A stretch of DNA of 33,895 nt from an uncultured Acidobacteriota bacterium (GTDB lineage: Bacteria; Acidobacteriota; Terriglobia; Terriglobales; Acidobacteriaceae), in contig CAINND010000101.1 of NCBI GenBank assembly GCA_903851035.1, positions 1 to 33,895 of the forward strand, read 5' to 3'. The position numbers and the translations under genes are program-made. Under the pieces are notes generated by a model that searched no databases, was not told the origin of the DNA, and saw nothing but the letters and a program-made list of their open reading frames with translations. This document shows positions 20,446-31,372 of the stretch, piece after piece. How positions within the stretch are numbered: the first letter of the stretch is position 1; each line of letters opens with the position of its first letter.

Positions 20446-21288
20446 TTACAACGCGGGCACAGGCTCCGCCACCGGAGAACCCTCTTCGGCGCGAAGCACC
20501 AGAGCCTTCACCAGGCCGGGTACGGTAAACTCCGTGGCCTGCACATCCACCGTCAGCTCAAAGTGCCGCAGGGTCTGGCTGGTCACTGGGCCAATCGAGG
20601 CATTCAGCACGCCCTCCACCAGCCGGCTCTTGCCGCTGCGAATCCCCAACAGCGCCACATAATTCTTCACCGTCGAGCTGCTGGTAAAGGTGATGACGTG
20701 CGGCCTCCGGCTGGGGTCGCGCAGCAGAGCGCGCAAGGCCACCCGCGACGATTGCGGCACCACCGTCTCATAGGCCTCCACCACGTCCAGGAAGGCGCCC
20801 ATGCGGCGCAGTTCACGGGGAATCACGTCGCGCGCAATCTTGGCGCGGCACAGCAGCACGCGCTTGCCGCGCACCTTCTCCTTCAGCGAGTCCACAATGG
20901 ATTCCGCCACATACTCGCGCGGCATCACTGTGACCGTCAGTCCTTCTCTTTCAATGGCCGCCCGTGTCGCCGGACCGATGGCGGCAATCTTCAGGTGCGC
21001 CAGCGAGCGCTTGGGGATGTTCAATCGCGCCAGCCGCTCGAACATCGCCTGCACGCCGTTCACGCTGGTCAGGATCAGCCACTCATACTCCGCCACCAGC
21101 TTCAGCGATTCGTCCATGCACTTGAATGAGCGCGGCGTTCGAATTTCGATGAAGGGTATCTCAAAGACCTCGGCACCCGCCTCGCGCAATCCCGCCGAGA
21201 GCGCTCCAGCCTGCTCCTTGGCGCGCGATACTAAGATGCGCCAGCCTTCCAGTGGTGCACTTGCTCCGAGTTCTGCTTTATCCGACAT
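20446..21288 (-). CDS. hemD: Uroporphyrinogen-III synthase
   Basis: HemD cyclises hydroxymethylbilane with inversion of ring D to give uroporphyrinogen III. The fold is poorly conserved, but LEGWRILVSRAKEQAG at the start, a WLILTSVNGVQAMF stretch, IAAIGPATRAAIE and the later VITFTSSSTVKNYV plus NASIGPVTSQTLR motifs are all there. It sits next to hemC, as in most haem operons. The ATG at 21288 has GGGGAA six bases upstream. A GTG at 21294 would add two residues. It is the last gene of the hem operon and the 280-aa length is normal. Confidence 0.93.
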   Translation of the reverse strand: MSDKAELGASAPLEGWRILVSRAKEQAGALSAGLREAGAEVFEIPFIEIRTPRSFKCMDESLKLVAEYEWLILTSVNGVQAMFERLARLNIPKRSLAHLKIAAIGPATRAAIEREGLTVTVMPREYVAESIVDSLKEKVRGKRVLLCRAKIARDVIPRELRRMGAFLDVVEAYETVVPQSSRVALRALLRDPSRRPHVITFTSSSTVKNYVALLGIRSGKSRLVEGVLNASIGPVTSQTLRHFELTVDVQATEFTVPGLVKALVLRAEEGSPVAEPVPAL

Positions 21289-21306
21289 CGTCACTTCCCC
21301 AGGGTT

Positions 21307-22239
21307 TTACGATTGGGGCGTAGGCGCGTTTTGCGCGTAAACGTCCTTCAAAATCTTGTCTCCGCCACGGCCCAGGATGAGGTTGCCCAGGCGCTGCCCA
21401 AGCTCCACCGGGTCCTTGCCCGTGCCGACTTCACGCAGCAGCTCCGTGCCATCAGGACGTGCGCAGATGGCCGTCATCGTCACCACTCCGTCTGTTACCT
21501 CCGCGAAGGCGCCAATCGGAACCTGGCAGCCGCCGCCCAACTGGTTCAGCAGCGCGCGCTCGGCCACCGTGGCCAGCCGCGAGGGCTCATCGTTCAAAAA
21601 CTCCAGATGCTTGCGCGTCGCCTCATCACCCAGGCGAATTTCAATGCCCAGCGCGCCCTGTCCGGCGGCGGAGCACATGATGTCGGCGTTGATGATTTCC
21701 TTGATGTGCTGCGTCTTGCCCAGGCGCTTCAGTCCGGCGGCGGCCAGGATAATGGCGTCATACTCGCCCTCTTCCAGCTTGCGCACGCGTGTATCCACGT
21801 TGCCGCGCAGCGGATAAATCGCCAAATCCGGACGGAACTGCATGAGCTGGGCCTGGCGGCGCAGGCTGCTGGTGCCCACGCGCGCGCCCTGCGGCAGCTC
21901 GCGCACGCTGTTGTACTTCAGCGAAAGGAAGGCGTCGCGCGGATCGACGCGCTCGGTGATGGCCGCAATCTCAAAGGGTCCGGCCAGCGTGGTGGGCAGG
22001 TCCTTCAGGCTGTGCACGGCCAGGTCCACGCGGCCCTCGGCCAGCGCTTCTTCAATCTCCTTGGTGAACATGCCCTTTGTGCCCACCTTGGCCAGCGCCA
22101 CGTCCTGAATCTTGTCGCCCGTGGTCTTGATTATCTCCAGCTCGACCTGGTGGCCCTTCTCGCGCAGCAAGGCGGAGATGTGATGCGCCTGCCAGAGCGC
22201 CAGTTGTGAACCACGGGAACCGATACGAAGCAATGCCAT
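21307..22239 (-). CDS. hemC: Porphobilinogen deaminase (hydroxymethylbilane synthase)
   Basis: HemC joins four porphobilinogen molecules into hydroxymethylbilane on its dipyrromethane cofactor. The cofactor cysteine is C238 in [10 protein letters not shown]. Other landmarks are [23 protein letters not shown] with the catalytic aspartate, and [12 protein letters not shown]. The 310-aa length is usual. An AAGGAAG lies before the ATG. hemA ends 13 bases upstream and hemD begins 18 bases after the stop, so all three are on one transcript. Confidence 0.98.
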
Positions 22240-22252
22240 TCGACTTCCTTTG

Positions 22253-23632
22253 CTATTTCTGAATTTGTTTCACCAGCGCTGGCGCTTCTGCCTCCGGGGC
22301 GGGCGCACGCTCAGGCGGACGCGCAGGAGCCGGCGCAGCGGCCTCTACCGGCTCTGGCGTCGATTCCTGCTTCGGATCCGGCCGCAGGTTGAACAGCTTG
22401 CGCACCACGTCAATCACCGTGGTGGACTCCGGATCGCGCGCCGCCGATTTCAACGTCGTGATCGGCGTGTGCATGATCTTGTTGATGATGCCCTTGGTCA
22501 GCGTTTCGACCGCCAGTTCCTGCTCCGGCGTCAGCTCGCCCAGGCGGCCGCGCACGCGATCCAGCTCGGCCTGCCGTAGGGTCTCAAGATGCTGCTGCAA
22601 ACTGACGATGGTCGGCACCACCTCTGCGGTCTGGGCGCGCGCCTCAAACTTGCGCACCTCTTCGTCCACCAACGACTCGGCGCGTACGGCCTCTTTGCGC
22701 CGGTCGCCCAGGTGAGACTGCACCACCTGCTGCAGATCGTCGATGTTGTAAACAAAGATGCCGTCCAGGTCATTCAGCCCGGCATCAATGTCGCGCGGCA
22801 CAGCAATGTCGATGAAGAACATCGGGCGGTTCTTGCGAGCCTGCAAAAACTTCTCGCCGTGCTCTTTGCGGAAGATGGCATGTGGCGCGCCCGTCGAGCT
22901 GATGATGATGTCGGCCCAGGGCACGGTGTCGTACAGGCGCTCAAACGGTATGGCCTCGCCATCGAACTTTTCCGCCAGGCTCACCGCGCGATCAAAGGTG
23001 CGGTTGCCCACAAAAATCTTCTTGGCGCCGTGCGCAATCAGGTGGCGCGCCGCCAGCTCGCACATCTTGCCCGCGCCCACCAGGGACACGCTCTTGCCCG
23101 TCAGGCTGCCAAAGATCTTCTCAGCCAGTTCCACGGCCACCGATGCGATGCTTACCGAGCTGCTGGCAATCGTCGTCTCGTTGCGAACCTTTTTGGCTAC
23201 GGCAAAGGCACGGGTCAGCAGTTGATCCAGTTGGCTGTTTACCGTGCCCAGTGCGCGCGCCGTCGCGTAGGCTTCCTTCACCTGTCCCAGAATCTGGCTC
23301 TCACCCACCACCATGGAATCCAGGCTGCTGGCCACGCGGAAGACGTGCTTTACCGCATCCAGGCTCTCATGCTGAAAGATGTAGGGCTCGTACTCGCCCT
23401 CGCTGAAACCGAAGAACTCGCGCACGAAGCGTTGCAGGTCGCACTCGCCGTCCTTCGAGCGCGCAAAAATCTCCACCCGGTTGCAGGTGGAGACGATCAT
23501 ACCCTCCTCCACCCCTTCCATCGAGGTCAGCTTGCCCAGTGCCTCCGGCAAGCGGGACTCGGGGATGGCGAAGCGCTCGCGCACTTCCACCGGTGCCGTT
23601 TTGTGGTTGACGCCTAATACTGAAAAATTCAT
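22253..23632 (-). CDS. hemA: Glutamyl-tRNA reductase
   Basis: HemA reduces glutamyl-tRNA to glutamate-1-semialdehyde, the first committed step of C5-pathway haem synthesis. The catalytic cysteine is C50 in [12 protein letters not shown]. The [21 protein letters not shown] box, the [21 protein letters not shown] site and the [15 protein letters not shown] dimerisation helix are present. The ATG overlaps the hemX stop by four bases. The protein has 459 aa, and the last 40 or so are a Pro/Ala/Glu-rich tail that most HemA proteins lack. The open frame upstream to 23782 belongs to hemX in another frame and is not coding here. Confidence 0.97.
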
Positions 23633-24444
23633 GGCGCTATGAACCTGTGCAACTTGCTCAAGTAGTTGGCACCCCAGGCGCAAACCGCGAGCACAAAGCC
23701 GATGCTGGCCAGGTAGGCGGCCTTCTTGCCGCGCCAGCCCGCGCTCCACCGCGTGTACAGCAGCAGCAGGTAGATTGCCCACATCAGCAGTGACAGCAGA
23801 ACCTTAGGATCGGCCACAAAGCTGGCGCCAAAGCGCTCCTCGGCAACCACCGAGCCCGCCAGCAAGCCGATCGTCATAAACGGAAAGCCCAGCAGCAGTG
23901 CCTTGTAGCCCAGCTCGTCAATCTCCTGCAAGGCCGGCATGCGAGAGGTCCACGACGATGGCTGCTTGCGCTTGAGCTGCCGCGACAGCAGCAGGTACAA
24001 CAGGCTGCTGACAAAACTCAGGAACAACATGGCATAGCCGAAGATCAGCGTGCAGACGTGGAAGAAAATCCAGCCGCCGTAGATCGGCGACTGCGCAATG
24101 GTCGTCCTTTGCTGGGAGAGCGCCGAGGCAAACGTCAGCAGAAAGATGAGAGGAAATATCAGGGCCGCCGGCGACGCCGTGCGATAGCGAACATAAAGAA
24201 CTGTAAAGATCAGTGCAATGATCAGAGCCAGCGCCGATTCTGCCTGGCGGATGGTCAACAGCTCGGAGTATCCATGCAGGGACGCGGTTTCAACCAGTGA
24301 TACCAGGTGAAAGACGATCCCAATACCGACCGCCGGAACCGCGATCTTGCCAAAACGCTCACCCCTTTGACGGAGCATGAGCATGGCATGAATCAGGCCG
24401 ACGCCATATAAAGCGGTTGCTACTCGAAGCCAAAGCAAAGGCAT
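23629..24444 (-). CDS. hemX: HemX/CcsA-like integral membrane protein
   Basis: The 271-aa protein has about eight hydrophobic helices and belongs to the cytochrome-c-assembly (CcsA/HemX) superfamily: an early SLHGYSELLTIRQAESALAL loop, a GGWIFFHVCTLIFGYA helix and a final DPKVLLSLLMWAIYLLLLY helix. In true CcsA the segment before DPK is Trp-rich (the WWD domain). Here it reads FGASFVADPK without tryptophans, so HemX is the better name. Bacillus HemX lowers HemA levels, which fits the coupled position. A GTG start at 24471, preceded by a G-run, would add nine residues; the ATG at 24444 is chosen. It is the first gene of the hem operon. Confidence 0.87.
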   Translation of the reverse strand: MPLLWLRVATALYGVGLIHAMLMLRQRGERFGKIAVPAVGIGIVFHLVSLVETASLHGYSELLTIRQAESALALIIALIFTVLYVRYRTASPAALIFPLIFLLTFASALSQQRTTIAQSPIYGGWIFFHVCTLIFGYAMLFLSFVSSLLYLLLSRQLKRKQPSSWTSRMPALQEIDELGYKALLLGFPFMTIGLLAGSVVAEERFGASFVADPKVLLSLLMWAIYLLLLYTRWSAGWRGKKAAYLASIGFVLAVCAWGANYLSKLHRFIAP

Positions 24445-24510: not shown

Positions 24511-24539
24511 ATTATACCCATGAGAAGAAACGGCCTAAG
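24511..24539 (-). promoter_or_regulatory. Promoter of the hem operon
   Basis: A perfect TATAAT lies on the minus strand (24511-24516). The hexamer 17 bases upstream is CTTAGG, a poor -35, which would suit an activator-dependent promoter. Transcription would begin near 24504, about 60 bases before the hemX ATG. Confidence 0.6.
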
Positions 24540-24552
24540 TGTGACTATCACT
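24538..24552. repeat. Secondary dyad next to the hem promoter
   Basis: AGTG and CACT flank seven bases (AGTG-N7-CACT), containing a TGTGA and a TCACT spaced too closely for a normal CRP site. It abuts the -35 region and lies just downstream of the CRP-type palindrome on the minus strand. A role as an accessory half-site is only inferred. Confidence 0.35.
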
Positions 24553-24558
24553 GCGAAT

Positions 24559-24574
24559 TGTGACGACCGTCACA
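24559..24574 (-). promoter_or_regulatory. CRP/FNR-type palindrome TGTGA-N6-TCACA
   Basis: The 16-base site matches the E. coli CRP consensus half-sites exactly. Its centre (24566.5) lies about 62 bases upstream of the predicted hem start, the class-I activator position. Crp/Fnr-family regulators are common, so the cognate protein may differ from E. coli CRP. The dyad is seen; the regulatory role is inferred. Confidence 0.6.
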
Positions 24575-24575
24575 T

Positions 24576-24818
24576 CGTTTCCCCTCTATCACGAGAACTG
24601 CCGCTGCTATCGTATTTGCATGGTACGCCTCAGCGCCGGATGGACAATTTCTTCTGCGGGCTATCGCATCTGACGATTTTCCCCTATCGATATCCTGATT
24701 CATCGCTCCGGAGAGCATTTGGCTCCGAAACAGACAACAGCGCAACCGCCTGCGTACCACAATGCTCAGTACCTTATCGGCACAAGTGATACCGTTCATC
24801 TGGCTCATTCGCACTGGT
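24576..24818. other. Intergenic stretch without a recognised feature
   Basis: Two short open frames cross this region (24520-24789 on plus, 24548-24832 on minus), but neither has a ribosome site or a recognisable protein character. The base composition is less GC-rich than the flanking genes. I see no hairpin terminator, RNA gene or repeat. It separates the divergent hem operon and the YtxH gene. Confidence 0.5.
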
Positions 24819-24847
24819 TTGTAATTCGACAAATCGGGTGCTAGGAT
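24819..24847 (+). promoter_or_regulatory. Candidate promoter of the YtxH gene
   Basis: TTGTAA (24819-24824) and TAGGAT (24842-24847) are 17 bases apart. Transcription would start near 24854, giving a leader of about 27 bases that carries the AGGAGG site. Both hexamers match the consensus at four of six positions. Confidence 0.5.
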
Positions 24848-24880
24848 TGAGCCCTTACGCTGTACCTAGGAGGCATTTCT

Positions 24881-25207
24881 ATGGCTGACGAAAGCTGCAA
24901 CTGCTCGGGTGGCGGTATCTTATGGTTCCTCGCCGGACTTGGCGTGGGCGCCGCAATCGGCGTTCTCTATGCTCCCAAGAGCGGCCGCGAAACCCGCGAG
25001 TCAATTCTTGCTGCGGCTGAGGAAGGCCGTGGCGTGGTCACTGAACACGCCCGCAAATATCGCGATCAGGCCACCGAGTGGGCCGATAAGGGCAAGGAAA
25101 CCATCGCGCAACAGAAGGAGAACCTGCGTTCGGCCTTTGAGGCTGGCCGCCAGGCCTATCGCGAAGCCCGCCATGAGCCCGAAGGTGAGCCCGGTACGGG
25201 TGTTTAA
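24881..25207 (+). CDS. YtxH-domain membrane-anchored protein
   Basis: The 108-aa protein has one glycine-rich hydrophobic segment (about residues 10-31, ILWFLAGLGVGAAIGVLYAPKSG) followed by the family's PKSGRETRE junction. A long charged helix rich in Glu, Lys, Arg and Ala follows, likely coiled-coil or amphipathic. YtxH proteins are linked to general stress in Bacillus, where ytxG, ytxH and ytxJ lie together. The AGGAGG seven bases before the ATG is perfect, suggesting strong expression. A cysteine pair (CNC) precedes the membrane segment. The next gene resembles DUF948/YtxG proteins, so the pair echoes the Bacillus cluster. Confidence 0.88.
   Translation: MADESCNCSGGGILWFLAGLGVGAAIGVLYAPKSGRETRESILAAAEEGRGVVTEHARKYRDQATEWADKGKETIAQQKENLRSAFEAGRQAYREARHEPEGEPGTGV

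Positions 25208-31296: not shown

Positions 31297-31372
<76 letters not shown>

Follow-up and report, generated by a model that had tools for sequence, protein, structure and literature searches.

A conserved TGTGA-N6-TCACA palindrome at the hem promoter of an Acidobacteriaceae genome and its predicted Crp/Fnr-family regulator

The haem biosynthesis locus and its promoter

The window, i.e. the whole stretch of 33,895 bases analysed here, is contig C101 of a source genome (G000) of 3.26 Mb in 121 contigs that is 98.9% complete. Its minus strand carries, consecutively, a hemX-like gene, hemA, hemC and hemD. The first gene of this operon (23629–24444; start ATG at 24444, MPLLWLRVAT...) encodes a membrane protein of the CcsB/HemX type (Pfam PF01578; NCBIfam ccsB below cut-off) and was named hemX by its position; its five matches in named genomes comprise four Acidobacteria MAGs (one of gp1) and one Deltaproteobacteria MAG (32% identity). 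The genes that follow encode glutamyl-tRNA reductase (hemA, 22253–23632, TIGR01035 over cut-off, protein start MNFSVLG), hydroxymethylbilane synthase (hemC, 21307–22239, TIGR00212 over cut-off) and uroporphyrinogen-III synthase (hemD, 20446–21294, PF02602 over cut-off). With hemA present in the window, a hemL-type match at E ≤ 1e-60 is missing from two of the four genomes of the genus (the source genome and G132), for which either an assembly gap or a different enzyme may account. A single tRNA gene, tRNA-Phe (GAA), is found in the window (31297–31372, minus strand), and an Rfam scan of 2,001 bases around the hem promoter returned zero matches at E ≤ 1.

Upstream of hemX lies the palindrome TGTGA-N6-TCACA that an earlier note on this DNA had placed at 24559–24574, and it is present and perfect there, reading TGTGACGACCGTCACA on the plus strand and TGTGACGGTCGTCACA (24574–24559) on the minus strand of the operon. 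This element, termed site 1, is a predicted operator and the only sequence in the window to match the consensus at 9/10 positions or better. Exactly 42 bp beyond its end, a perfect TATAAT (24516–24511, minus strand) constitutes the presumed -10 element, from which a transcript start at about 24504 was deduced. The hexamer located 17 bp 5' of TATAAT is CTTAGG, agreeing with the -35 consensus at 2/6 positions, in keeping with the earlier description of a poor -35, and a sigma-70 consensus scan identified no -35/-10 pair over threshold. Relative to the deduced start, the centre of site 1 falls at about -62.5, one base off -61.5, the classical class I activator position; the previously claimed distance of about 62 bases thus holds for this promoter, while beyond the genus and its near relatives the spacing differs.

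The earlier note had also pointed to a second dyad, AGTGTGACTATCACT, at 24538–24552. Its coordinates are correct; as a dyad, however, it was rejected, since its right half is not kept and in relatives only the GTGA half on the minus strand recurs. It is better read as a class II half-site (half-site 2, AGTGA-N6-CACTT, 24537–24552, minus strand), of which the GTGA half alone is conserved and whose AGTGA occupies 24552–24548 in the window. Counted from start to start, half-site 2 lies 22 bp, or two turns of the helix, behind site 1, and its centre at about -40.5 is near the class II position. GTGA is found exactly seven bases past the end of site 1 in 30 of 43 hemX sites, the chance for one such offset being about 1/256. 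Set against the positions of about -61.5 or -41.5, with a weak -35, that characterise this operator class, the elements of the window lie at a deduced -62.5 and -40.5, and a tandem of class I and class II contacts is likely to be the arrangement at the hem promoter. On the plus strand, 5' of a YtxH-like gene at 24881, a stretch at 24810–24870 containing GTTTGTAATTCGACAAATCGGGTGCTAGGAT is partly kept in congeners and may represent a divergent promoter.

Conservation of the hemX site and its recurrence at other genes

Nine perfect copies of TGTGA-N6-TCACA are present in the source genome, where approximately 1.5 would be expected from the base composition of the window, compared to none of the reversed pattern; the congeners G046, G132 and G103 contain ten, nine and five perfect copies, respectively (reversed pattern: 0, 1 and 0). 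To follow up the suggestion that the site be sought in relatives, upstream regions of hemX (up to 500 bp, with the exception of locus L045 with only 304 bp) were collected from 90 of the 147 genomes in which hemX was found among the 150 of the family, i.e. from the 30 best matches and 60 others hand-chosen from the list. A perfect site was present in 33 and a site of at least 9/10 in 43 of these 90 regions, while in dinucleotide shuffles (20 per gene set) perfect sites averaged 0.05 (at most 1) and those of at least 9/10 averaged 0.65 (at most 2); among the 30 best matches, 18 carry a perfect site. The conserved core encloses a variable spacer, as is characteristic of Crp/Fnr operators, whose palindromes are TGTGA-N6-TCACA or TTGAT-N4-ATCAA: among 54 perfect sites from five gene groups, the spacer begins with C or T in 52 and ends with G or A in 44, with the combined pattern [CT]-N4-[AG] in 42. 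The palindrome thus passes the conservation test proposed in the earlier note; it is a genuine conserved site that is predicted to be bound by protein and, from these patterns, very likely represents a functional Crp/Fnr-type site of the hem promoter.

Conservation has its limits, as the hemX site is absent from the congener G103 (where TATAAT is kept) and a site of at least 9/10 was found in 0/14 genomes of sister family f2 of the same order. The position of the promoter relative to the site also varies. A -10-like hexamer (TANNNT, at least 5/6) lies 42 bp past the site in eight of the 43 hemX sites, a group that includes the window and loci L022, L023, L025, L026 and L027, and other sites display spacings of 49 bp (seven), 48 bp (five), 1 bp (three) and 41, 47 or 19 bp (two each). 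These distances differ among clades, indicating that the operator itself is retained but not its spacing to the promoter. In loci L105, L107 and L110, which belong to distant clades, a 9/10 palindrome is positioned 1 bp 5' of a TATACT -10 element, a geometry that would be better suited to a repressor than to an activator. Four loci with the -10 element at 48–49 bp (L053, L058, L060 and L048) possess an extra inverted repeat of the CTGCC or GCCCC ... GGGGCAG type, apparently situated, as judged by eye, between the half-site and the -10 element.

The genes neighbouring the other perfect sites were named by Pfam and by similarity between loci. Further steps of the haem pathway are represented by hemE (G132 and G046), hemB (G046) and a Pfam class-III aminotransferase gene of G103, which we take to be hemL. 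In the source genome, a perfect site precedes a gene for an Rrf2 regulator followed by that for cytochrome bd subunit I, cydA being found in the same place in G046, and additional perfect sites lie before nuoA, before a carboxylase-type gene and before the Crp/Fnr gene C52. Cytochrome c genes are preceded by a perfect site in G000, G046 and G132, and in the same three genomes pyruvate:ferredoxin oxidoreductase is encoded about 250 bp downstream of one; a site also precedes the gene for the NiFe-hydrogenase small subunit in G046. In the source genome, a neighbour of this kind was identified for seven of the nine perfect sites and no evident target for the other two (L006 and L007); of the 24 perfect sites in the congeners, 12 or 13 lie next to haem or redox genes (G046 7/10, G132 4/9, G103 1 or 2/5). 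Two further palindromes are shared by G103 and G132: a perfect copy is kept between the same two genes, presumably for glycyl-tRNA synthetase subunits (L111 and L116), and another lies close to a gene identified by Pfam as a pyridoxal-dependent decarboxylase and near a second, presumably HypB-like gene (L120 and L131).

The haem and regulator loci were also assessed across the family, using 400 bp upstream of the 30 best matches for each gene. Sites of at least 9/10 were identified in 9/30 (hemE), 10/30 (hemB), 12/30 (hemL) and 15/30 (regulator gene) regions, of which seven, three, eight and three, respectively, are perfect, compared to shuffle means of 0.10 to 0.30; the final 400 bases of each matched stretch contained such a site in 0/30 in each of the four sets. 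The source genome itself carries 9/10 sites at hemE and hemB. A loose -10 hexamer (TANNNT, 4/6) follows the site at 21–22 bp for hemE (7/9), 23 bp for hemB (6/10) and 20–22 bp for hemL (up to 10/12), and the sites of these three genes, mostly 20–23 bp before the predicted -10 element, are therefore at class II distance.

The candidate regulator and alternative explanations

A PF13545 search of the source genome identified six proteins, among which C52 (G000:C52:16619-17386) and C28 alone possess the helix GTSRETVTR, matching residues R180, E181 and R185 of E. coli CRP. In an alignment of the 30 best C52-like proteins with E. coli FNR and CRP, this helix and an N-terminal CX2CX8C motif are present in 30/30, and the column of the cAMP-contacting Arg82 of CRP is occupied by Tyr in 30/30. 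Six Cys columns are conserved in all 30 and one in 27. The latter lies three columns before that of FNR Cys122, so that its candidacy as the equivalent of Cys122 was rejected; the Cys122 column itself holds Asn, Asp or Val and never Cys in these 30 proteins. As, in addition, the third Cys of CX2CX8C is offset from FNR Cys29, an iron-sulphur cluster is uncertain. C52 scores below the NCBIfam cut-offs for Fnr (39.6 versus 228 bits) and FnrL (50.8 versus 300 bits) and does not reach the CRP model either; it may work like FNR with CRP-type specificity, and we do not assign it to FNR proper. Downstream of C52 lies a gene for a protein of the 4Fe-4S ferredoxin type. The spacer of the palindrome before the regulator gene reads TATAAG or TATAAA in G000, G132, G046, G021 and G103, so the -10 element may lie inside the operator, which makes it probable that the C52-type regulator represses its own gene. 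Beside C28, a third FNR-like frame with N-terminal cysteines (L016:1956-2462, G000:C28) ends before the HTH domain.

The presence of the hemX site (at least 9/10) was compared with that of C52-like proteins: it was found in 31 of the 33 genomes whose C52-like protein is closest (E < 1e-93) versus 12 of the 57 others, where the E-values are rounded and the cut was chosen after they were known. The two exceptions are G103 (no site) and G109 (8/10). Other cuts gave 42/61 versus 1/29 (1e-60) and 43/80 versus 0/10 (any match), i.e. the site was absent from all ten genomes without an FNR-like match at E ≤ 1e-25. This co-occurrence is confounded by the relatedness of the genomes; a contrast within one genus (g59) is provided by G059, which has both a C52-like protein and the site, and G112, which has neither.

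We infer binding by C52, activation and oxygen sensing through an iron-sulphur cluster from what the sequence itself displays, namely the site, its geometry, its conservation, its recurrence at haem and redox genes and the features of the protein. The best explanation, and one that we hold to be reasonably probable, is that the palindrome is an operator for a Crp/Fnr-superfamily activator, the FNR-like C52, by which haem synthesis is coupled to low oxygen or redox state. A Crp/Fnr dimer would occupy site 1 at about -62.5, probably assisted by contact with the GTGA half-site that follows 22 bp further downstream at about -40.5, and would recruit RNA polymerase to a TATAAT promoter devoid of a good -35, whereupon transcription of hemX-hemA-hemC-hemD would rise. 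C52 would be the most likely activator, having CX2CX8C, a CRP-type helix and the palindrome before its own gene; that a C52-type protein binds the hem site is considered probable, while oxygen, perceived through an iron-sulphur cluster, is given an even chance of being the signal. Through C52, haem synthesis, including hemB, hemE and hemL, would respond to low oxygen or redox state, with genes for cytochrome bd, cytochrome c, pyruvate:ferredoxin oxidoreductase and hydrogenase co-regulated. An oxygen- or redox-sensing protein thus probably switches on haem synthesis together with haem-using respiratory genes via the palindrome. The more specific proposal, that this is the family's own low-oxygen regulator, with a CX2CX8C sensor and CRP-type specificity, which activates hemXACD, hemB, hemE, hemL and the cytochrome bd, cytochrome c, pyruvate:ferredoxin oxidoreductase and hydrogenase genes and represses itself, is advanced tentatively, at slightly less than even confidence. 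The explanation is weakened by G103, which has a close C52 orthologue but no hemX site, by the approximately half of the congeners' perfect sites that have no haem or redox neighbour, by the existence of two source-genome proteins with the right helix (C52 and C28), by the 0/14 of sister family f2 and by the clades in which the -10 element follows the site by 1 bp.

The strongest rival binder is C28, and it is conceivable, if rather unlikely, that this second FNR-like protein or both paralogues bind the site, in which case the signal may differ (e.g. nitric oxide). C28 has the same helix and N-terminal cysteines as C52 and is encoded near the perfect site before cytochrome c genes, and 129 of the 150 family genomes encode at least one FNR-like protein of the C52/C28 type, many having several. 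Conversely, the hemX site tracks the closest C52 orthologues (31/33, paralogues not being tallied separately) and it is the C52 gene itself that is preceded by a site in the source genome. Activation of the haem operon by cAMP-bound CRP according to carbon status is improbable: the operator sequence is of the CRP type, including the spacer pattern in 42/54 perfect sites, and an identical consensus underlies the control of cydAB by Mycobacterium smegmatis Crp according to the available text of PMC7739888, but no adenylate cyclase of class III or I (PF00211 and PF01295, the classes searched) was detected at E ≤ 0.001 in this 98.9%-complete genome, and Arg82 of CRP is missing in both proteins with the right helix, C52 and C28. 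The earlier proposal of Crp/Fnr-type activation of the hem operon is therefore upheld by the conservation of the site, the motif at hemB, hemE and hemL and the matching regulator gene, while cAMP is disfavoured as its signal; among the signals then offered, oxygen or redox state appears favoured.

The most tempting rival is the NADH-sensing repressor Rex, whose palindrome is similar and whose targets overlap in the accessible parts of PMC5355995 and PMC2883068. Its N-terminal domain (PF06971), however, was not found in the source genome at E ≤ 0.001 and has a match in 7/150 family genomes (over cut-off in one), and TGTGAA-N4-TTCACA occurs in 0/54 perfect sites, with either inner base in 1/54. 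Rex was rejected on the grounds of the gene not being found and the inner AA...TT pair being absent from these 54 sites, which renders it highly improbable as the binder. In Streptomyces, too, the spacer of certain Rex sites departs from this pattern (PMC5355995, available text), and in Staphylococcus aureus a TGTGAn6TCACA-like motif before hemE is not bound by Rex (PMC2883068, available text). That the palindrome is a functionless product of chance is equally hard to credit; about 1.5 perfect sites are expected per such genome and G103 does without the hemX site, yet the conserved core with its variable spacer, the fixed half-site offset and the recurrence at three further haem loci contradict it.

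Comparison with known systems

Acidobacteriota abound in soil. Strains in culture respire oxygen at nanomolar concentrations, and in A. capsulatum cydA is upregulated as oxygen falls (PMC8407424, available text), a response compatible with the proposed regulon. In the accessible main text of the acidobacterial low-oxygen literature examined, including PMC8407424, fnr and crp are unmentioned, and among the open-licence PMC papers listed on the subject, judged mostly from the listing, none appears to describe a Crp/Fnr regulon or FNR-controlled haem genes for this phylum; Crp/Fnr control of haem genes as such is already known from FnrL. If the preferred reading, i.e. activation by C52, is true, it would name the regulator, operator and targets of the family's oxic-anoxic switch, wire haem supply to haem demand, and offer examples of an FNR-like sensor that uses a CRP-type operator and of one gene's operator shifting its promoter distance between clades.

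C52 resembles E. coli FNR in its N-terminal cysteines, its cNMP-fold and HTH domains and the E209 and R213 columns (kept in 30/30). In contrast to FNR, which has CX2CX5C and Cys122, it has CX2CX8C, no Cys at the latter position, an Arg at the column of CRP R180 and a CRP-type operator. Bacillus subtilis Fnr, an Fe-S protein that also uses a TGTGA-N6-TCACA operator, carries its cluster cysteines C-terminally, whereas the CX2CX8C cysteines of C52 are N-terminal. With E. coli CRP and mycobacterial Crp, the system shares the SRETV..R helix, the TGTGA-N6-TCACA operator and the class I and II positions, and in M. smegmatis a pair of these operators upstream of cydA is bound by Crp (PMC7739888, available text); CRP has the cAMP-contacting Arg82, whereas the C52-like proteins have Tyr (30/30) and N-terminal cysteines, in a genome in which no class I/III cyclase was found. 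In Streptomyces, Rex controls hemACD, cyd and nuo via a TGTGA...TCACA palindrome (PMC5355995), but Rex, in Streptomyces and Staphylococcus alike, is a repressor of another protein family and prefers, in the text available, the inner AA...TT pair seen in 0/54 sites here.

The FnrL protein of Rhodobacterales, a cysteine-bearing Crp/Fnr protein and low-oxygen activator, provides a parallel in that, when oxygen is low, it switches on haem genes, among them hemA and hemN, together with genes for cytochrome oxidase and for regulators; in D. shibae, one of its sites is located 41.5 bp upstream of the hemA3 start (PMC4634722 and PMC5398030, as far as their text was available). C52 scores 50.8 bits against the FnrL model (cut-off 300), and FnrL sites are of the TTGA type (TGA-N6-TCA with flanking T/A) rather than TGTGA-N6-TCACA. 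Additionally, more genes of the pathway carry sites here, namely the hemX operon, hemB, hemE and hemL, than under FnrL in the portions of those reports that were available.
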